A stretch of 64,000 nt of DNA from Candidatus Bathyarchaeia archaeon. Its GTDB lineage: Archaea; Thermoproteota; Bathyarchaeia; Hecatellales; Hecatellaceae. A program made the translations under genes and the position numbers. A model generated the notes under the pieces. The model was not told the origin of the DNA and did not search any database. It saw nothing but the letters and a program-made list of their open reading frames with translations. The stretch is taken from the NCBI GenBank assembly GCA_038883335.1, contig JAVZMI010000003.1:1-64000 (forward strand). The letters are read 5' to 3'. This document shows, piece after piece, positions 1 to 13,393 of the stretch (the stretch's first letter is position 1; each line of letters begins with the position of its first letter).

Positions 1-1410
1 AGCTTTCAATTCCCTTTGTTGGGATTTTCGTTCTGCATCCTGATCTTGAGCAATATTTCAAACCGACGGAAACAATACTTTCAATTCCCTTTGTTGGGAT
101 TTTCGTTCTGCATCGCAACTATACTGTTCGACACGATGGTTAATATTGTTCCGTCGGCTTTCAATTCCCTTTGTTGGGATTTTCGTTCTGCATCTCTTAT
201 ATGTTGTGCCTTTCGGCTCAGAGAAAACAACTTTCTTTCAATTCCCTTTGTTGGGATTTTCGTTCTGCATCAAAAATGCTTATCTAGACGGGGTTATTAC
301 TGGCAAAGAGCTCTTTCAATTCCCTTTGTTGGGATTTTCGTTCTGCATCATTTTAACATCCGCGAAATACATAGTTGCCCGCTCCTCGTCTTTCAATTCC
401 CTTTGTTGGGATTTTCGTTCTGCATCCTATTTATTACCGCACAAAACAAAAGGTGACTGAAAACGAGCTTTCAATTCCCTTTGTTGGGATTTTCGTTCTG
501 CATCTTTCGCAATGTACGTTTGAACCTCTTCGCTTAAACGGTCGCTTTCAATTCCCTTTGTTGGGATTTTCGTTCTGCATCGGAGATAAAAATGGATTTG
601 GATGAAGCCAGAAGTTATATACTTTCAATTCCCTTTGTTGGGATTTTCGTTCTGCATCCTCCATGCCTGCCTTTTCAAAAAGTTCCGCGATTTTTGCTTT
701 CAATTCCCTTTGTTGGGATTTTCGTTCTGCATCGCTTTTCGACCGTCTTCTGAGGGAGAATCTTGTTGTCTTTCAATTCCCTTTGTTGGGATTTTCGTTC
801 TGCATCGAAACGCACATATTCGCCCGCACGAGAAGGAACACCGATACTTTCAATTCCCTTTGTTGGGATTTTCGTTCTGCATCTATATGGGCCAGCGAAA
901 ACATGTTCAACAATGCTATAAGCTTTCAATTCCCTTTGTTGGGATTTTCGTTCTGCATCAGATGGAGTGGCGGCAGGAAATTTTAGGCGAATTTGTCTTT
1001 CAATTCCCTTTGTTGGGATTTTCGTTCTGCATCTCCCCCTGACTTTTCTGCGGCGGCAGTTCTAGGCTCACTTTCAATTCCCTTTGTTGGGATTTTCGTT
1101 CTGCATCTCTGTGGCAAACGGGGCGCTGACATATATGGTTCGCCCCCTTTCAATTCCCTTTGTTGGGATTTTCGTTCTGCATCCAGGTTTGTAATCAGTC
1201 CTGAAACTAATATGTGGGCGTCCTTTCAATTCCCTTTGTTGGGATTTTCGTTCTGCATCGCCTGTCAGCTTAATTCCTGTTTTGATTAAATCTTTGGACT
1301 TTCAATTCCCTTTGTTGGGATTTTCGTTCTGCATCATAAAGTCAGGATTGTTAGCTGTTGCTAGCAATCTTGTCTTTCAATTCCCTTTGTTGGGATTTTC
1401 GTTCTGCATC
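1..1410 (-). CRISPR. CRISPR array 1 (19 repeats, truncated by the window edge)
   Basis: There are nineteen identical 37-nt repeats, the first at 3-39 and the last at 1374-1410, separated by 18 unique spacers of about 36-43 nt. Read on the minus strand each repeat starts GATGCAGAACG and ends GGGAATTGAAAG. The terminal ATTGAAAG is the usual 8-nt 5' handle of many archaeal type I and type III crRNAs, so transcription is assigned to the minus strand and the leader to the right. Two bases of another spacer precede the first repeat, so the array probably continues to the left. No repeat shows a mismatch, which suggests an active or recently copied array. No cas gene flanks it here. The open frames that cross it are only translated repeats. 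Confidence 0.97.
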
Positions 1411-4293: not shown

Positions 4294-4519
4294 TCCTTTC
4301 ACCCTTCCATTGGTTTATAACTACTAATGGTCCCACTGGTAGTATTTAAACTGTTCACCAGACCCACAGCCCCTACAAAGCCTTAAAAAACTAGCATAGC
4401 CGAGAACAATAACTAGGCTGAGCTAATTTAACTATCGAACTGCAAAATTGAGTCCCAAATAAACGAGGTATGCCTCTCCTCGCCACCTCAAAAAAAGGTC
4501 CCACGTAATTAGCTCAGAA

Positions 4520-4540
4520 TGGCGCGGCCACCGGGATTTG
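4520..4540 (-). repeat. Copy of the tRNA-Gly 3' end (putative att site)
   Basis: Twenty of 21 bases match 13316-13336, the 3' end of the tRNA-Gly gene from the T loop through the acceptor strand to the encoded CCA. The single difference is the discriminator base. Orientation is the same as in the tRNA, so the two copies form a direct repeat 8.8 kb apart. No full tRNA can be folded around this copy. Such 3'-end fragments are the usual distal scar of integrase-mediated insertion into a tRNA gene. Confidence 0.65.
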
Positions 4541-5155
4541 GGCTTCAGGTTTGATTCTCCACTATTTCCTGCACCTTTAGAGGTTTGAAGCATTTCACTT
4601 AACCTCATCTATTATTTGCAGCATCTTCATATTTTAAAGTAATTGTTGAGCTGGCAACAGATGCGGCGATTTATGGAACCGTGGGATACCGCCCTCGATC
4701 GGTAACTTGAAGCTCTGATCATGGCGGGCCGAGGTACGCTAAAGTTCGATTAAACTGGAATAATGAGAACAGAGGCCAAAACTTCATTTTTTATAGTTAA
4801 AGGGCTACCTTAGAAACGATAGTATAAGCTACTTTTAAGCCCCCTTGGCAGTCTACCTGCGTATACGGAAATATATAACCGCCAAACGTTGGAGGGCTGA
4901 CCCCCCCTTAACGGCCGCCTATACGGAGGGGCTAAGGGATAAAGTCTGTGACAAAACGTTAAAAGGGAAAATCTAAAAGCTAGGGGAGGAGTTGAGGTAA
5001 GAGAGGATCCTTATTATCTATTCATGCCAAAAATTCAAAATTTTCAATGACGACACCCCCTAGTCCATAACATCGAGGGCAGTACAGGTTGCCTACAAGT
5101 ATGACAATGTTAGATCGAGAAGCCTAGTACAAGGAGAGACCCTACGGGGGTAACA

Positions 5156-5163
5156 GTTATAAC
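5156..5163 (+). promoter_or_regulatory. Candidate TATA box of the cas operon
   Basis: GTTATAAC lies 36-43 bp upstream of the cas10 GTG codon, leaving room for a short leader with an AGAGG ribosome-binding site (about 5186-5190). It is the only TATA-like element close to the operon start. Confidence 0.35.
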
Positions 5164-5198
5164 GCTAACCTCTAGGATAAGTATCAGAGGGCCGAGAA

Positions 5199-7088
5199 GT
5201 GCAAGAGATCTTGCAAGTTAGGCTAGCAGCCCTCCTTCACGACATCGGCAAACCCGAATGCTGGGCAAACCAGAAACCATGGTCACACCACATCTACTAC
5301 ACGGAGAAACTCCTCAACGAGACGGTCGGCGCTGAGGTTGCCTCTATCGCGATGAGACACCACAGTGGCTCCTCATATAATCTTGAAGATCGCCCTAAGA
5401 CGGATATTGAGAGAATTATCTGCCTCGCGGACAACATTGCCTCCGGAGCAGATAGGCCTGAGGAGACGATGGGCGCCGGAGGGAGACCTTCACTCCCAGT
5501 AAGATTGACCCATATTCTATCAGACGGTAGCAAGATCGTTAAGGAAACCACAGCACGGGACCTTTACCTCTTCCAAGAGCAGTTCAAACAGAGATTCAAA
5601 GGTTGCCTTCCAACAGATAAACTCTATGACTCTCTTTACGATTTCCTTTCCAAGTCACTATTAAGGGAGATTCCAGCCGACACCAGAAGCCCTGTGAACG
5701 ATGCCTCACTGTGGGATCACCTTAAATTGACGGCGGCTATAGCCAACTGCGCATGGAAGAGCGGAGGGTACCAGGGAGACGAACCTTCGAAGTATAAATT
5801 TGTCCTGATCTCAGCAGACGCAGACAGGGTCTCAGATTACATTAACGCATCGTCACGCCTACCCGACCTTGAGGCGGGTAGCCGCAAAGTCAAAGAAGCC
5901 ACGGAGGAGGCCGCCAAAACAGTCAAGGAGATCTTAGGCCCAGAGTGCCTTCTATTCCACGGTGGCGGTAGCCTCCTAGTGATCTCGCCCCCCAACGAAA
6001 GTCAGAGGGTCCTCCGAGAAGTGAAAAACAGGTTCGAGACGTCAACAAGAGGCATGCTCACGATGACGGTCTGCTCAACAGAGACAGATGGGGGCAAAAT
6101 TAAGCAGTATTTCGGAAGTGTGTGGGAGGAGGCCGTGAATAACCTCAGAGCTGAAAAGGGAGAGAGGGCTATGCCTATTCCTCCAGTTATCGAGGAGAAT
6201 ATTCCCTTATGCGATGTATGTAGAAAGATGCCAGCCGAGCACTTTGATGATAAGAAGGTGATACCTATAGATGCGTCGCCGAGACCTGAAGCCCTATGCT
6301 CCTTGTGCTGGGAGAAACGAATGACGGGTAAGGGAGTGAGCTTAGACGACATGAAGGATGGAAGGAATTTTGTCGCTGTGATAAAGGCTGACGGCGATGG
6401 TCTGGGCGAGGTTTTGAGCGGGAGGAGAGTGAAGCTATACCGTAAGGCTATGACGCCGTCGAGGCTATCGACGATAAGCGGTCTCCTCCACCAGACTTGC
6501 GAGATAACTCTTGTTAAGGAGATTAACTCCCTTGGCGGCGAGGCCATATTTGCAGGCGGAGATGATATACTTGCAGTAACACCTGGTATGAAAAGTCTCC
6601 ATGCGGCTAGAGCTATTGCGTCGAAGTTCGAAGAGGCGTTGGGGGGTGAAGCAACTCTATCTGCAGGTGTCGCGATCTTCCACTACAGGCTTCCAATATA
6701 TGTTGCCCTCGAGTCGGCAACTATACTCCTCAGAAAGGCCAAGCAAGTTGCTGGCAAGGCATCTATAGCCTTCCACTTTATCACTGAAGCAGGGGTTCTC
6801 GAAGCTGAGCTGGAGAAGTGCCGGGCGTATTCTTGGGTCGAAATCGGTAAGCTTCTCAGAGTTGTGGATTATCTGAGAAGGTGTAAACTTACATCAAGCC
6901 AAGTCAGACTTATAGCTGCCGCCTGTAAGAGGAACCGCGAGAATGCACAAACTGTAACTAAATACTTTATGGGTCGTGGACAGATCGAGTGGCATGAAGG
7001 GGAGCGGCTTCTAGCTTATATCAAGTCCGGCCTGTTTCATGATGCATTTCAGGTCTATAATGCTTTCCGAGGAGGTGAAGAGGTTTGA
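5199..7088 (+). CDS. cas10: Cas10 (Csm1-type large subunit of type III effector)
   Basis: Cas10 is the signalling subunit of type III CRISPR complexes; it makes cyclic oligoadenylates and, in many cases, cuts ssDNA. At 629 residues it has an N-terminal HD domain (LLHDIGKP, His14-Asp15; a further MRHHSG), two Palm-type halves, a Cys4 zinc site (CDVC near 338-341 and CSLC near 367-370) and an intact GGDD cyclase motif near 453-456 preceded by IKADGDGLG. Both HD and GGDD look functional. Start is GTG with AGAGG upstream. The stop overlaps the next gene by 4 nt, so the four effector genes form one operon. The length is below many Csm1 proteins (about 700-800). Confidence 0.94.
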   Translation: MQEILQVRLAALLHDIGKPECWANQKPWSHHIYYTEKLLNETVGAEVASIAMRHHSGSSYNLEDRPKTDIERIICLADNIASGADRPEETMGAGGRPSLPVRLTHILSDGSKIVKETTARDLYLFQEQFKQRFKGCLPTDKLYDSLYDFLSKSLLREIPADTRSPVNDASLWDHLKLTAAIANCAWKSGGYQGDEPSKYKFVLISADADRVSDYINASSRLPDLEAGSRKVKEATEEAAKTVKEILGPECLLFHGGGSLLVISPPNESQRVLREVKNRFETSTRGMLTMTVCSTETDGGKIKQYFGSVWEEAVNNLRAEKGERAMPIPPVIEENIPLCDVCRKMPAEHFDDKKVIPIDASPRPEALCSLCWEKRMTGKGVSLDDMKDGRNFVAVIKADGDGLGEVLSGRRVKLYRKAMTPSRLSTISGLLHQTCEITLVKEINSLGGEAIFAGGDDILAVTPGMKSLHAARAIASKFEEALGGEATLSAGVAIFHYRLPIYVALESATILLRKAKQVAGKASIAFHFITEAGVLEAELEKCRAYSWVEIGKLLRVVDYLRRCKLTSSQVRLIAAACKRNRENAQTVTKYFMGRGQIEWHEGERLLAYIKSGLFHDAFQVYNAFRGGEEV

Positions 7089-7609
7089 GCGGAGAAGTGG
7101 GTTTGAAGCGTGAGGGGGAGGATCTGGCTAAGCTAGCTGTGAGTTGTAACATTGGGGCTAAGCAGTTACGAACCCTCTATGATACGGCGAGAACCCGTGA
7201 CAAGCCTATGCTAGAAGCCTATGTCCAGTATCAGATACCGCGGATATCGGGCTACCTAGAGTTTGGAGAAAAGATGCTACAGCTTATCGGCAGATACGAG
7301 AAGATGCAGGTAGTCACTATACTGCAGTATGCAAACATGCTCTATGACTATTATAGGTTGAAAAGATGGAAAGCCCTTGAACCAATAATTGGGGAGACAA
7401 TAAAACGTACCACTCAACAGTATGGGTACATAGGTGTTGAGATTCGGATGGAGCGAGACACCCCTGAAGTGTTTGTGATGCTCCGCGACTTCCGTGGAAA
7501 CCCGCGACAACTCGCGGAAGAGTTGAGCGCTAGGATAAAGCAGAATATCACTGAAATACGGAATATACCTGTCAAGATATGGATTAGAACCCAAGTTGAA
7601 AGGAGGTGA
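7085..7609 (+). CDS. csm2: Csm2-like small subunit (Cas11)
   Basis: This 174-residue, helix-rich protein sits where the small subunit belongs, directly after cas10. Its middle (LRTLYDTARTRDKPMLEAY and the following YLEFGEKMLQLIGRYEK) has the amphipathic helical pattern of Csm2. Csm2 proteins are usually 120-150 residues, and here a C-terminal extension of about 50 residues (VEIRMERDTPEVF onward) follows. The start is TTG at 7085 inside the cas10 stop, supported by a strong GGAGGTGA 6 nt upstream. It would line the crRNA-target duplex as repeated copies. Family membership is by position and fold pattern rather than a diagnostic motif. Confidence 0.72.
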   Translation: MSGEVGLKREGEDLAKLAVSCNIGAKQLRTLYDTARTRDKPMLEAYVQYQIPRISGYLEFGEKMLQLIGRYEKMQVVTILQYANMLYDYYRLKRWKALEPIIGETIKRTTQQYGYIGVEIRMERDTPEVFVMLRDFRGNPRQLAEELSARIKQNITEIRNIPVKIWIRTQVERR

Positions 7610-7614
7610 GAAAT

Positions 7615-8325
7615 ATGGTTTTTGAGAAGCTCGAGAAGAGAACCATTTTCAGTGGGGTGATAGAGACTTTGACACCTCTGCATATAGGTTCAGGGAAGCC
7701 TGAGGTTGATATAGGCGCCGCTGATATGCCGATCTTGGTGGATACGGAAGGGCAGCCCTACATTCCCGGTTCATCTCTCAAAGGCCGCATTAGGGCCGAG
7801 GCCGAGAAGATAGCTCGGAAAGAGGGGAAAGAGGTCTGTAATCCGCCTGATGTCAAGAATATGTGTGGCACACTAAAAAAAGAACCTAAAGATTTCTGTA
7901 TCGCCTGTAGGATATTCGGCACCGCGGGGGAAGTCTCAGTAGCAAGCAAGGTAAAGTTTAGAGATGCATACCCTACCAAGAAGATAGAAAAATTCCTGAC
8001 ACGGACAGGGACGGCTATAGACAGAGAGAAAGGTAGCGTAGCTCGAAGTGCTCTATACTCTATCGAGGCGGTTCCCGCAGGATCGACTTTCAATCTTGAG
8101 ATAGTGGCCGAGAATCTAACCGATGAGGAGCTGAAGCTACTGTTGGCAGCTATGAAGTCGATGGAGGACTCAGCCTTAGGCGGCTCTTCCACACGAGGGT
8201 TCGGCAAGGTTAGACTGAACTTTGACAAAGTCTATACCCGGACTGCCAAATACTACTTAGGCGAGGAAGAGGAGGATGTTCTTGAAGGAGCAGATCTGGA
8301 ACGCTGGCTGAAGGAGAAGAGGTAG
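7615..8325 (+). CDS. csm3: Csm3-like Cas7 RAMP (backbone subunit)
   Basis: The 236-residue RAMP protein carries the features of Csm3: LTPLHIGSGKPEVDIG at the N terminus, YIPGSSLKGRIRAEAE, a Cys-rich insertion (CGTLKKEPKDFCIACRIFG) and a C-terminal glycine-rich loop LGGSSTRGFGKV near 188-199. In type III complexes Csm3 binds the crRNA as a filament and cuts target RNA with a conserved Asp; candidates are the Asp residues in VDIGAAD. The start is ATG 7615, because GGAGGTGA at 7602-7609 is its Shine-Dalgarno; the upstream GTG at 7606 lies inside that site. Only one Csm3-type gene is present. Confidence 0.9.
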   Translation: MVFEKLEKRTIFSGVIETLTPLHIGSGKPEVDIGAADMPILVDTEGQPYIPGSSLKGRIRAEAEKIARKEGKEVCNPPDVKNMCGTLKKEPKDFCIACRIFGTAGEVSVASKVKFRDAYPTKKIEKFLTRTGTAIDREKGSVARSALYSIEAVPAGSTFNLEIVAENLTDEELKLLLAAMKSMEDSALGGSSTRGFGKVRLNFDKVYTRTAKYYLGEEEEDVLEGADLERWLKEKR

Positions 8326-9480
8326 TTGGGTTCAGTGATCTGCTATCGAGTTTGTGGAACATTGGTAGCTAAGACGCCCCTCCATATCGGCTCGGGGAAG
8401 AGGGCGGGGGTGATAAAGCATACTACCCCATATATACCTGGCTCCTTCCTTAGAGGTGCCTTCGGTATCTCTCTCCTCAAAGTTGCATGTAAACTAGATG
8501 AACCCTTGGTAAACCATGAGAAGTGCAAGTATCTCGACGACTGCCTCTATACTTACTTATATGGTGATGACTTCAGCAAATCTGCAAACATCCTCTTCCG
8601 CTATGCCTACCCTCTCCATATCAAGTGTGGTGGTGTCTACCTACCAGCTAAGAGGACAGTTTTCAGATGTGAAAACCGACAATGTGGCATGACCTATGAC
8701 ACTTTCAAGCCGCCTCTTGAGTGCGTGAAGTGTGGGAAGAAGGTAAAGCCTTACACGGGTTATGTTTGCTCCGGCTGTGGTGAGATGGAGCCACATCCTA
8801 CACCTGTTACAAGGATTATATCAACTGCCATCGATCGGGGCCGCTTCTCTGCGGCTACTGTGGGTGGTAGGGAGGAGAAAGGTACGCTTAGGACACTGGA
8901 GGTCATTGATCGAGGTGCCGAGTTCCGGTTGGAAGTGATTCTCTTTGAGGAGTGTCGAGAGTATCTTGAGAAGATAAAGAGCCTCTTGGCGAGGGGGCTG
9001 ACTGACGAGGGGGTGGGGGGCGAGAAATCTAGCGGTCTGGGAAAAGTCACCGTGGAGAATCTGACGATTACAGAGGTCACTTCAGAGGATATACGTCGGC
9101 GAGCGAGGGAGATAGATCCAGCTGACTTCACAGTCTGGCTTGTCTCTCCGATGGTTCTGCGGGAAGGTGAGAGCACTATTGATGCCTCGGCGCTATTGGA
9201 GAATGCTCGAAGGGCTTATACCCGATGTTTCAAGGATGGAAAGCCAAGTCTACCTGAAGTCACAATAGCTGAGCAGCAGCTGGTTTATGGCACCTTTAGT
9301 GGGTGGTCTCTTAGGGATGAGAGACGTCGTCGAGTTGAGCCAATGCTGGCTGCTGGGTCAACCTTAAGGTTCCAGTCTGATAGCCGAGATGAGAAGCTCG
9401 CTCTGGGTCTTGCGGCCCTAGAGGTGAATGCTGTAGGAGCCTATAAGCCCCATGGATGTGGCCAGATAAAGATAGGTTGA
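8326..9480 (+). CDS. Csx10-like RAMP protein with zinc-ribbon insertion
   Basis: This 384-residue protein has an N-terminal RAMP domain (AKTPLHIGSGKR, YIPGSFLRGAFG), a central Cys-rich insertion with Cys pairs between residues about 115 and 151, a TRIISTAIDRGRFSAAT segment, a glycine-rich loop (GGEKSSGLGKV) and a second C-terminal domain ending GAYKPHGCGQI. That order resembles Csx10, the Cas5-type subunit of type III-D complexes, more than Csm4 or Csm5. It starts with TTG immediately after the csm3 stop, with GGAGAAGAGG upstream; GTG at 8338 is an alternative. As the last gene of the operon it would cap the crRNA 5' handle. No separate Csm5 follows. Confidence 0.75.
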   Translation: MGSVICYRVCGTLVAKTPLHIGSGKRAGVIKHTTPYIPGSFLRGAFGISLLKVACKLDEPLVNHEKCKYLDDCLYTYLYGDDFSKSANILFRYAYPLHIKCGGVYLPAKRTVFRCENRQCGMTYDTFKPPLECVKCGKKVKPYTGYVCSGCGEMEPHPTPVTRIISTAIDRGRFSAATVGGREEKGTLRTLEVIDRGAEFRLEVILFEECREYLEKIKSLLARGLTDEGVGGEKSSGLGKVTVENLTITEVTSEDIRRRAREIDPADFTVWLVSPMVLREGESTIDASALLENARRAYTRCFKDGKPSLPEVTIAEQQLVYGTFSGWSLRDERRRRVEPMLAAGSTLRFQSDSRDEKLALGLAALEVNAVGAYKPHGCGQIKIG

Positions 9481-9765
9481 TATAATAATTACAAACTGTT
9501 AGGGGGTGTTTAAGGGGCTGTGCAACGGGTCCAGTAGTGATCCATCGGACATGCAGATCGGCGATCTATGCGCTAAGTGGATTTCGGATCTTCATATAGC
9601 CGTGTAAAAGCGCCAAGCTAGAGGCATGGCACCATATGGGTTAGATTATGGTGGGCTTCGATTTTCTTTATAAAGCTTGATGCGACAAGCAGACAATCGG
9701 AGGCTGTGTCTAGATAAACCCTAAAATGGGGCTAGAAACCCGGATTAAACCTAAAAGATACTCTG
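9481..9765. other. Spacer region between the cas operon and array 2
   Basis: These 285 bp are leader-distal for array 2 when the array is read on the minus strand. No gene was recognised. A GGGGGTGTTTAAGGGG block occurs near 9501-9516 and a TTTATAAAG element near 9668. I see no degenerate repeat, so the array ends abruptly here. Confidence 0.4.
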
Positions 9766-11106
9766 GTTTCAATGACTCCAATGAGGATGAGAAGACAGAA
9801 ACCCATTGGGCTAGAGACGAAATCGATGAGACTTTTCTAAAAGTTTCAATGACTCCAATGAGGATGAGAAGACAGAAACCTGTGGGCGTCGGACAGCCAG
9901 GCCAGATATTCGCCGTTAAAGTTTCAATGACTCCAATGAGGATGAGAAGACAGAAACTTTAATATTTGTTTAGCCTTGAATACGTGTTGGTCCGCGAGTT
10001 TCAATGACTCCAATGAGGATGAGAAGACAGAAACTCCGGCAACATTTCGCTCAGCCGCAAATCGCAAAAAATAAGTTTCAATGACTCCAATGAGGATGAG
10101 AAGACAGAAACGTCCCGAGGCGAACATGTGGGCCAGCGAAGCCATGTTGTTTCAATGACTCCAATGAGGATGAGAAGACAGAAACTATGTTGCACATGTT
10201 TAAAATTTCTCCAAGATAATGTTTTTAGTTTCAATGACTCCAATGAGGATGAGAAGACAGAAACGCTAAAACGCGGTCTCCGTCAGTCTTAATTCGCCTA
10301 ACAGTTTCAATGACTCCAATGAGGATGAGAAGACAGAAACTTTAATTTTTGGTTTAATATTTCTTTCGCCTTGGCCACGTGTGTTTCAATGACTCCAATG
10401 AGGATGAGAAGACAGAAACACTTCCATGCGGGTTAGTTTTCGCGAAAGCTCGTTTTCACAGTTTCAATGACTCCAATGAGGATGAGAAGACAGAAACTGG
10501 GCGTAGAGCACTTCGCCCTGTGTTTTTTGCGGTGGGTTTCAATGACTCCAATGAGGATGAGAAGACAGAAACTCATCCATCCACTGCCCCCACTGCACCA
10601 CGCCAGCAGGGCAGTTTCAATGACTCCAATGAGGATGAGAAGACAGAAACTTTAATATTTGTTTCGCCTTGGCCACATAGTCATCCGTTTCAATGACTCC
10701 AATGAGGATGAGAAGACAGAAACGCAGAAAATATTACAACATCACCCAACCAAATTCTAAGGTTTCAATGACTCCAATGAGGATGAGAAGACAGAAACTC
10801 GCAATAGCGTTCGTCTGGTTCAGAGGCTAAAAGGAGACAAGTTTCAATGACTCCAATGAGGATGAGAAGACAGAAACCACTCCACCTCTCAACGTTCGCA
10901 GAACGTTGAGCTAAAGTTTCAATGACTCCAATGAGGATGAGAAGACAGAAACGTTTTTATTTTCAGCATTATTTCCATTTTTTTTTTCTTTCGTTTCAAT
11001 GACTCCAATGAGGATGAGAAGACAGAAACGCGAAATATCTCCTCCGTATCGGCGCCCCGCACTTTGAAAGTTTCAATGACTCCAATGAGGATGAGAAGAC
11101 AGAAAC
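9766..11106 (-). CRISPR. CRISPR array 2 (18 repeats)
   Basis: Eighteen identical 37-nt repeats run from 9766-9802 to 11070-11106, with 17 spacers of about 36-43 nt. On the minus strand the repeat begins GTTTCTGTCTTCTC and ends GTCATTGAAAC, so it has short inverted ends (GTTTC/GAAAC) and the ATTGAAAC crRNA handle. The repeat shares almost nothing with array 1 outside the ATTGAAA handle. Transcription is assigned to the minus strand, towards the convergent cas operon. Several spacers are related to each other (see findings). One spacer (10878-10915) contains a perfect 10-bp hairpin. Confidence 0.97.
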
Positions 11107-11261
11107 CTTGAAGCTGTGAGCAGCATCTCGAAATGTCGCTGACCGCGAGGAGAGACCCCATGTCAATAGTAAAACCGATCTCATAGCTTACCCGTTAATA
11201 AAAAGAAAAGATACGGAAGCCATAGTTCAACGGCGTTTCGAGCCAAGTATTCTCACAACCC
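11107..11261 (-). promoter_or_regulatory. Leader of CRISPR array 2
   Basis: This segment lies next to the leader-proximal repeat. An A/T-rich element (TAATAAAAAG on the plus strand near 11196-11205, TTTTTATTA on the minus strand) about 90 bp from the array is a candidate promoter. The 40 bp nearest the array are not A/T-rich and could be an old spacer without a flanking repeat. The assignment is positional. Confidence 0.45.
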
Positions 11262-11609
11262 TCATTTCTTATTCAACGACCCTTCCAGCTTCTCTATTTC
11301 ACCCTTCAATTTGCCAATCATCTTCTCGGCATATTTCACATTCACAGCCATATCTTTATATGGGAACCACCTTAACCGTTCACCAAAAATCACCGACGCA
11401 AAAGCCTCACTAACAACATCCGCACATTCGTGGTTCGAGTAAAACCCTATGCTTCGACCAAAATTGTCATGATCCAAACCCAACGTGTGCAAAAACTCGT
11501 GAACCAACGTGAGCTTCGTATGCCTCTGGTTTAGGCGTTTACTAATGTATATCTCGTTCTCTGTTGTTTGTTCACCGAAAGTGTCATCCTCAAAATCTTT
11601 TAGTTTCAC
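11262..11609 (-). CDS. Metzincin-like zinc peptidase, possibly N-terminally frameshifted
   Basis: The 115-residue product carries the full metzincin signature HExxHxxGxxH as HEFLHTLGLDH, followed by a helix with YSNHECADVVSEAFASVIFGE and a charged C-terminal helix. Small peptidases of this sort occur in mobile elements, sometimes as ImmA-type regulators. The GTG start has no clear ribosome site. Upstream, an ATG at 11656-11658 begins MKDFF in a different frame, and the two frames meet in a run of eight T. A one-base slip there would give a longer protein with residues RCLSKLEKLEVK before the present start. The gene lies between array 2 and the broken integrase. Confidence 0.65.
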   Translation of the reverse strand: MKLKDFEDDTFGEQTTENEIYISKRLNQRHTKLTLVHEFLHTLGLDHDNFGRSIGFYSNHECADVVSEAFASVIFGERLRWFPYKDMAVNVKYAEKMIGKLKGEIEKLEGSLNKK

Positions 11610-12035
11610 TTCTAACTTTTCGAGTTTACTTAAACATCGCGTAAAAAAAATCTTTCATTTCTGAAAGTAGGAGACTTGTATCTTTTTCTCTCATATTCAC
11701 AACTCCAAATTACGGAGATTGGAGGATTCGATAACCCATTTCGAGCCTTATAGGTATTCTCACAACAATTCTGTTAGCCCTGTTTGCCGTACATGTTGCA
11801 ATGCCTTCAAAAAATTAAATCTGAACTATTACGCATGCAATAAACAAAATTTAATAACTAAACCAGCCAAGTCGAGGAGAGCCATGCCAATTTTTTGGTT
11901 GCAGCAGAAGTCGAAACCACTAGTTCAAATGATCTTCATTTTGTCTTCCCACTTGACCGCGGAGGTGGCAGTTGGTGTCTCATCAGCCATCTGAAGTGGG
12001 AGTAGAGGAGGCTCGACGGCTTCTACCCTACTGGG
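11610..12035. other. Region without a recognised gene, within the putative element
   Basis: It contains the possible frameshifted start of the peptidase gene (11656-11658) and a second copy, at about 11741-11765, of the string TTTCGAGCC followed by GTATTCTCACAAC that also occurs at 11236-11259. An open frame at 11719-11994 on the plus strand has no recognisable features. The left part is A/T-rich, and composition changes to G/C-rich near 12000 where the integrase relic begins. Confidence 0.4.
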
Positions 12036-13281
12036 CTAGGGAGCTACTTCGGATGTGGGAGGAGGCTGAGAGGAGGAAGAAAGCTCGGAAACCTTCCGCG
12101 CAAGAAACCTTCTAACCTCCACATCCCCCATCAGCAAGTCAATTATCCTATCCGCTCTGGCTCTATCCTCCTCCAGCCTCACCGCCACGCTCACATCCAA
12201 GACCATGCTGCAGGCTGAGCAGAACTGCGCCTCAGGACCGCCCCCTGCCTACACCGCGGACACACAGTCGATACGAGTGCTGCCTTCACTCTATCCTCTT
12301 GACCCTTTACTATTCCATGAGCCCTCAGCAGCGCACCATCAACGTCCCTCCCTGAGAGGCGAACATAGACTGAGGGCATATCTGAGCCATGAACCCAGCC
12401 CAGCAGCTCCTTCATCTGAGCCTCCGTGAGCATGGCTGCCAGCCCAGTCGCCCTCGTATGCCTCAAAAGGTGCGAGTACACTCGCTTATTCAGACCAGCC
12501 CTCCTAGCGAGCCTGCGGAGCAGAGCCCTAATCCCACTATAGCTCAAAGGCTCATACCTGCCCACAGAGCCTAAACCAACCCATAAAGGCGCATTCGGGT
12601 CTCCTCTCAGGGTGTGGATGCTGAGCCACGACGCCAACGCGGGCACAGCCGCTATCACCCTAACCCTTCTGGGCCAGTCTTACCGTCCACGATGAGCACA
12701 GCCCCATACTGGTCGAACCACACATTGAGTACGAGAAGTGATAGGGTCTCACCTATCCTGCAACCCGACTAGTAATGTGTGAGAATAAGGGCTCTATCCC
12801 GCGGGTTCTCAGCAGCCTCCACCAGCCCCCTCAACCCCTCCGCCGTGAGCAACGCCTCAGGCAGCAGCCGCCTCCTCCTAAGCGTAGCCCTTATCCACTT
12901 GACCTCCTCCGGATACTCGTACTCCTCCTCGTCGCAGCCCCTCAGCCACTGGTAGAACTTTTTGAGGATTATCTTATAGTCGTGCTTCGTATGCTCCGTA
13001 TAACCTCCAGAGTTCCCCCGGCTCACCAGCCTTTCCACACCCGCCCTCCCAAGCTGCTTGAAGGGCACCCCAACCATCCTAGCCAGCACGGTGAGGTGGT
13101 TGATGTATTTGGTTGCTCTGGGCTTGCTGACTCCTCTGGACAGCAGGTGCTCAACCAGCCCCATAATCTCAGCCTTATTCTCCTGGCAGATGTCCGCCGC
13201 CGACTGGAGACGCTTTAAGGCGCTGTTAAAGGCTTGGTCATGTGGGTAGATCCCCAGCCGGCTCATATGCTTGGCACCCAT
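12036..13281 (-). pseudogene. Tyrosine recombinase (integrase) relic with zinc ribbon
   Basis: The relic encodes an archaeal XerC/phage-type integrase in pieces. The N-terminal 170 residues (MGAKHMSRLGIYPHDQAF onward) contain a SAM-like core-binding domain and stop at TAG (12769-12771), just before SGCRIGETLSL, which holds the first catalytic Arg. A frameshift after DGKTG (about 12670) leads to the next piece with HLLRHTRATGLA, LLGWVHGSDMPSVYVRLSG (catalytic His/Arg and Tyr) and the first zinc-ribbon pair CPRC. A second frameshift in a G run (12235-12248) separates the second pair CSAC and the tail. All catalytic motifs survive across frames, so decay or sequencing error is recent. The start lies 34 bp from the tRNA-Gly CCA end. 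Confidence 0.88.
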
Positions 13282-13315
13282 AATAAAAAAGAGCGATGGA
13301 ATCGAGCCTGAAGGT

Positions 13316-13393
13316 TGGTGCGGCCACCGGGATTTGAACCCGGGTTAGAGGCTTGGGGGGCCTCCGTCTTAGACCAGGCTGGACCATGGCCGC
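13316..13393 (-). tRNA. tRNA-Gly (CCC), CCA encoded
   Basis: The cloverleaf reads GCGGCCA acceptor, D arm with AGCCTGGTCTAA, anticodon stem GAGGC/GCCTC with loop CCCCCAA (anticodon CCC), T arm CCGGGTTCAAATCCCGG, acceptor TGGCCGC, discriminator A and an encoded CCA. Stems pair well. Position 33 is C instead of the near-universal U, taking the seven-base loop as drawn. The 3' end is duplicated at 4520-4540, and an integrase relic starts beside the CCA end. Confidence 0.9.

Follow-up and report, generated by a model that had tools for sequence, protein, structure and literature searches.

An 8.8-kb probable integrative island with a type III CRISPR-Cas operon and a broken integrase at a tRNA-Gly gene of a Bathyarchaeia archaeon

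We consider positions 4520–13336 to be an 8.8-kb integrative island bearing a type III CRISPR-Cas operon and a CRISPR array, with an integrase gene that was later broken, and give this reading a probability of roughly 0.8. The window, that is, the whole stretch of 64,000 nucleotides analysed, comprises positions 1–64,000 of contig JAVZMI010000003.1 (GCA_038883335.1), and all window coordinates count from there. Whole-genome pattern searches covered all contigs of the source genome, a 1.22-Mb assembly (G000).

Island ends and the integrase relic

The tRNA-Gly(CCC) gene was the sole tRNA identified by ARAGORN in the 64-kb window. The features that define the two ends of the island were as follows.

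13316–13393, minus strand: tRNA-Gly(CCC) gene with encoded CCA (ARAGORN), the integration target, its 3' end presumably rebuilt by the island
13316–13336, minus strand: proximal attachment-site copy (core), from the tRNA T-loop to the CCA (direct repeat and whole-genome pattern search)
4520–4540, minus strand: distal attachment-site copy, the putatively displaced tRNA 3' end, 20/21 identical (direct repeat and whole-genome pattern search)
13299–13313, minus strand: inner site CTTCAGGCTCGATTC, candidate integrase-binding site, 2 nt from the proximal core
4543–4557, plus strand: inverted counterpart CTTCAGGTTTGATTC of that inner site, separated from the distal core by 2 nt

An earlier note on this DNA had reported the 20/21 repeat of the tRNA-Gly 3' end at a distance of 8.8 kb, and the genome-wide search upheld it. 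The two 21-nt copies lie 8796 bp apart, share one orientation, and differ at a single position; the repeat stops after 21 nt, the remainder of tRNA-Gly(CCC) being without a second copy at 4520. With up to three mismatches allowed, the only other matches to the core in the 1.22-Mb genome were the 3' ends of the tRNA-Gly(GCC) and tRNA-Gly(TCC) genes. As these carry two and three mismatches, tRNA-Gly(CCC) is the closest source of the copy at 4520. Dinucleotide shuffles gave an expectation of 0.01 core matches in the window at the same threshold, and the local alignment score of the core pair was 18, compared with 9–12 in shuffled sequence.

The inverted inner sites are absent from the earlier note and are new evidence for the island ends. 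Directly 3' of the CCA of tRNA-Gly(CCC) lies ACCTTCAGGCTCGATTCC, and the two 15-nt inner sites are identical at 13/15 positions in inverted orientation (consensus CTTCAGGYTYGATTC). Zero-mismatch matches to CTTCAGGYTYGATTC across the whole genome numbered three (both island ends and one behind tRNA-Gly(GCC) on contig C14); the consensus was derived from both island ends, and only the absence of further sites is informative. The composite score of distal core plus inverted flank reached 28 for the ends in the window, compared with 8–10 in shuffles. If circularised, the island would have its 21-bp core bracketed by the two inverted sites, an arrangement that an attP should have, and the inner sites may be where the integrase binds. 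The distal attachment copy is also flanked, in tRNA order, by the tRNA-like motifs TAGCTCAG and GGTTTGATTC (window 4510–4562, plus strand). ARAGORN called no tRNA in this interval, and the second motif (GGTTTGATTC) overlaps the inverted inner site.

The remaining features at the tRNA side of the island are two broken genes.

12090–13281, minus strand: tyrosine integrase relic with an in-frame TAG and two frameshifts (collinear alignment to an intact relative)
11262–11694, minus strand: metzincin-like (HExxHxxGxxH) peptidase gene, frameshifted at a poly-A/T homopolymer run

The placement of the relic 34 bp from the CCA, also noted previously, was confirmed by alignment: it starts at 13281, its far end lies at about 12090, and the TAG and both frameshifts are evident. 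Against the intact 407-aa integrase of genome G165, which is likewise found behind a tRNA-Gly, the relic is collinear in three pieces split by the two frameshifts, with 61–67% identity. The attachment site does not interrupt the integrase gene, and the enzyme is accordingly of the classical rather than the SSV suicidal type. SSV-type integrases are also archaeal tyrosine integrases that target tRNA genes, and in these the att core lies inside the gene, which is split on integration (PMC8371274). In the window, by contrast, the core lies 34 bp outside a collinear gene that was broken by mutation and not by integration, which rules out an SSV-type reading. A casposon was likewise ruled out, as the island has no cas1. 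With its integrase broken, the window copy reads as a remnant rather than an active element. The 115-aa peptidase ORF had no match in Pfam or NCBIfam, and its lesion sits in a homopolymer and so could be a sequencing error.

To look for an empty site, we traced both flanks of the island, one with GGPPS and the tRNA and the other with M50, in 60 relatives. None of these 60, all from other genera, showed an empty site, and synteny was lost at the family level. A tRNA-Gly beside GGPPS is kept in several genomes of the same family, but it has the anticodon TCC and unrelated downstream DNA, which accounts for the lack of an empty site in the relatives.

CRISPR-Cas genes on and off the island

Between the core copies lie four intact cas-operon ORFs, an array of 18 repeats, the frameshifted peptidase ORF, and the integrase relic. 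The earlier claim that the cas operon, array 2, and a metzincin-like peptidase gene all sit between the repeats was thus borne out, with the peptidase gene itself being frameshifted.

5199–7088, plus strand: cas10, HD and GGDD motifs intact (family profile matches and motif inspection)
7085–7609, plus strand: conserved 174-aa gene in the type III small-subunit position, cas11/csm2-like by position only
7606–8325, plus strand: cas7, Csm3/Csx7-like (family profile match)
8326–9480, plus strand: cas5 group protein, distantly Csx10-like (family profile match)
9766–11106, plus strand: CRISPR array 2, 18 identical 37-nt repeats

By its sequence matches, the effector system of the island is classed as type III CRISPR-Cas. 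Matches to Cas10, Cas7, and RAMP families were over their cut-offs and an array is present, the small subunit being assigned by position only. The 174-aa gene itself had no family match. The order cas10-cas7-cas5 is found in five other genomes, and a homologue of the 174-aa gene is detectable in the cas operon of four. The system resembles type III-D and III-A effectors in its Cas10 with HD and GGDD motifs, Csm3-like Cas7, distantly Csx10-like Cas5, and array, as well as in the CARF-HEPN gene that adjoins the related locus in G001. It differs from both in having one separate Cas7, no separate Csm4 or Csm5, and a small subunit without a family match. For subtype III-D, which has a Csx10-type Cas5 and several Cas7-like subunits, the Cas5 protein scored 43.7 bits against Csx10, far under the cut-off of 177.3, and the island encodes a single separate Cas7. 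Subtype III-A was rejected, as Csm1 (172.4 bits vs. 170) and Csm3 were over their cut-offs but no Csm4 or Csm5 match was.

The distribution of CRISPR-Cas in the class is patchy, with cas10 in 18/201 genomes and cas1 in 63/201. The GC content of the cas genes resembles that of the chromosome, and composition is uninformative on a foreign origin. A tree of Cas10, Cas7, and Cas5, built as a transfer test, did not resolve horizontal acquisition. Searches with Cas10 returned no match in IMG/VR and only distant bacterial matches among named genomes.

Genes that could assist the effector are found elsewhere in the assembly. An intact CARF-HEPN (Csm6/Csx1-type) gene lies among chromosomal genes on contig C9 (8633–9829), unlinked to the island. 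Its product is 51.5% identical to the type III-linked one of G001, and its homologues in G001 and G027 adjoin type III loci. The cas1 gene of the source genome is on contig C4, also unlinked to the island, and on visual inspection the ORFs beside it look like cas2 and csa1. Cas1 matches in the genome were confined to contigs C4 and C16, with none within the island. C16, a small contig, bears a further Cas1-like gene (10464–11306) adjoining an ORF with internal repeats; this gene may be a solo cas1, or the contig may be a contaminant.

Three array-2 spacers (window 9958, 10341, and 10651) are variants of one sequence, and an array-1 spacer at window 884 resembles the array-2 spacer at 10112. 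These similarities suggest that the spacers of both arrays derive from related viruses, which would fit adaptation in trans. Comparison of the spacers with the fetched loci gave weak matches only, none of which was accepted. Array 1 (window 3–1410 plus the start of contig C17) lies outside the island and is cut by contig ends. Its repeat is 34/37 identical to the array repeat on an att-bounded type I CRISPR island in genome G170.

The integrase family and related islands

The intact integrase of G001 was used as a query against 201 genomes of the class. Relatives were found in 65 of the 201, and relics are common. Where the fetched locus included sufficient flanking sequence, the integrase in most cases immediately followed a tRNA gene, and many isoacceptors are represented. 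This habit, with paired ends like those of the window island in several members, forms with the direct repeat and the inverted inner sites three independent lines that strongly support the proposal of the earlier note that the window holds a tRNA-Gly-integrated element. The same integrase family is also encoded on IMG/VR contigs that bear genes for tail and baseplate proteins, indicating that viruses use it too.

A composite scan, in which a distal tRNA 3'-end core plus inverted flank was scored against shuffles, identified five further islands above shuffles, each repeating the tRNA 3' end at a distance of 4.5–31 kb.

G170: tRNA-Pro, 19.4 kb, inner flanks inverted (17/20)
G185: tRNA-Ser, 14.0 kb, inner flanks inverted (16/20)
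G193: tRNA-His, 30.9 kb, inner flanks not inverted; integrase match without its start
G113: tRNA-Leu, 4.5 kb, inner flanks inverted (15/20)
G051: tRNA-Leu, 7.3 kb, inner-flank inversion not significant

The inversion of the inner flanks was significant in three of the five (G170, G185, and G113). A sixth match, in G086, was discarded because it was another tRNA gene.

The tRNA-Pro island of G170 (L172:309 to L188:5711, contig C10 of that genome) has an intact integrase and is better preserved than the window island. Its cargo is a complete type I CRISPR-Cas system consisting of cas6, cas3, cas5, cas7, cas4, cas1, csa1, and an array of four repeats. In G001, which belongs to the same family but another genus, a tRNA gene is followed by an intact integrase and, 3 kb on, by a homologous cas operon, an array, and a Csm6/Csx1-type nuclease gene (order: tRNA-integrase-cas10-cas7-cas5-array-CARF/HEPN). 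No distal repeat was found within 50 kb in G001. We read its tRNA as tRNA-Asp, from an apparently intron-containing gene that ARAGORN typed ambiguously. Other cargo includes an OLD/GajA-like ATPase-nuclease gene on the G051 island (L204:6149–8071) and DpdA/TGT- and BrxD-like genes on the G193 island (L190:9936–14680). G165 was dropped as a cas-bearing element, as its Cas1 match was a lone broken cas1 and no array was found. Cas loci within 12 kb downstream of such integrases were a few times commoner than chance by a rough, informal hand estimate.

Counting type III CRISPR, type I CRISPR, OLD/GajA-like, and Dpd-like genes as defence cargo, we tentatively suggest that one integrase family, shared with tailed viruses, may define small tRNA islands whose attP has a core between inverted sites and which recurrently carry whole defence systems as helper-dependent, hitchhiking carriers. 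We hold this broader generalisation to be somewhat less probable than its opposite.

CRISPR-bearing integrated islands are of a known kind. The thaumarchaeal integrated elements NitVie-E4 and NitEve-E4 carry type I-B CRISPR-Cas (PMC6563490). Like the present island, they belong to a set of archaeal integrated elements, many of them in tRNA genes, with direct-repeat bounds, and they hold an array and cas genes (PMC6563490). The window island differs in its type III system, its archaeal group, its small size, its broken integrase, and the inverted sites beside its core. Integrase islands of Vibrio also carry CRISPR-Cas, mostly of type I-F, and share a tyrosine integrase, attL/attR, and CRISPR-Cas cargo with the window island, one of them lying beside a tRNA locus; they are bacterial, and the sections of that paper available to us report no inverted-site att architecture (PMC6360697). 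The literature searched yielded no description of a type III system carried by an archaeal island of this sort, though this does not prove that none exists. What is added here is the type III system and, possibly, a defence-ferrying integrase family.

Origin and mobility of the island

The events that would best explain these features begin with a tyrosine integrase that recombined a circular form, with an attP made of the 21-bp tRNA-Gly 3' end and the inverted sites, into tRNA-Gly(CCC). Integration would have restored the tRNA gene and pushed its original 3' end out to 4520, bringing in the four-gene type III effector operon and array 2. The integrase gene probably broke later (a TAG and two frameshifts) while the cas genes stayed intact, and the window copy would then no longer excise itself. 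Guided by crRNAs from array 2, the effector probably detects viral transcripts, on which Cas10 would activate its own HD nuclease and the synthesis of cyclic oligoadenylates. The Csm6/Csx1-type signalling nuclease and the adaptation genes, encoded elsewhere in the chromosome, would act in trans.

The earlier note had taken the defence system to be cargo of the element, and cas entry as island cargo is likely. This reading is favoured by the position of the cas genes between the att copies and by the analogues in G170 and G001, and it falls short of proof. Neighbours of the integrase that differ in every genome, named in the earlier note as evidence against the block, were encountered in part: for most relatives of the integrase, no cas genes lie in the vicinity, whereas G170 and G001 pair the integrase with CRISPR-Cas. 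The island could also be real while the cas operon and array 2 came later or by host recombination, its first cargo having been the integrase and peptidase region. The integrase and peptidase genes are broken and the cas ORFs are all intact, a pattern that this sequence of events would explain and that also fits retention of the useful part of the island. The scarcity of cas genes among family members speaks for later arrival, as does the cas block being inverted relative to the integrase in the window and not in G001, a difference that counts against a simple cargo reading. There is, however, no inner boundary repeat in the region, and with two other loci of the family pairing integrase and CRISPR-Cas we regard a later arrival as improbable. 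Far less probable again is that the repeat at 4520 is a chance match or a duplicated tRNA fragment, with the cas operon an ordinary chromosomal locus near an integrase relic. Fragments of tRNA genes can be duplicated and the class is rich in integrase relics, but the genome search, the shuffles, and the alignment score exclude chance for the core. Duplication, for its part, would leave unexplained both the inverted inner sites lying 2 nt from each core and the same geometry in other genomes.

Whether the island was fixed when its integrase decayed, as previously proposed, is a separate matter. Contig C14 opens with 120 bases that match window 13206–13325 exactly and are joined to tRNA-Gly(GCC) at a contig break (C14:1–188, locus L092), so the integrase end is found at two tRNA-Gly genes in the assembly. 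Its presence there could stem from a second copy, from variation within the population, or from a recombination event involving tRNA genes. The island may accordingly not be fixed at all: a near-identical and possibly intact copy could sit or move at tRNA-Gly(GCC) in the population, the copy in the window being one of two. The exact match of the 120 bases and the recurrence of the exact inner site behind the C14 tRNA gene agree with this, but the second copy is assembled over 120 bp only, and what lies beyond could be just as damaged or belong to another element. Whole-genome searches for the core and the inner site found no second distal end, and the same picture would arise if the two tRNA-Gly genes had recombined. 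We judge such a mobile twin unlikely, if clearly less so than late arrival of the cas genes. In the preferred reading of a single integrated island with a decayed integrase, fixation is plausible, as the integrase is indeed broken; given the identical integrase start behind a second tRNA-Gly, decay may nonetheless not have ended mobility in the lineage.

To our knowledge, the vehicles that move whole CRISPR-Cas systems have rarely been delimited to the base pair. Here, both ends are defined for the window island and for its type I-bearing relative in G170. Because the integrase, att core, and inverted sites are defined, it becomes possible to test how CRISPR immunity is transferred, excised, and fixed in uncultivated archaea. 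That CRISPR systems appear to be carried in the same way by related integrases in two archaea helps to explain how immunity may move between cells.
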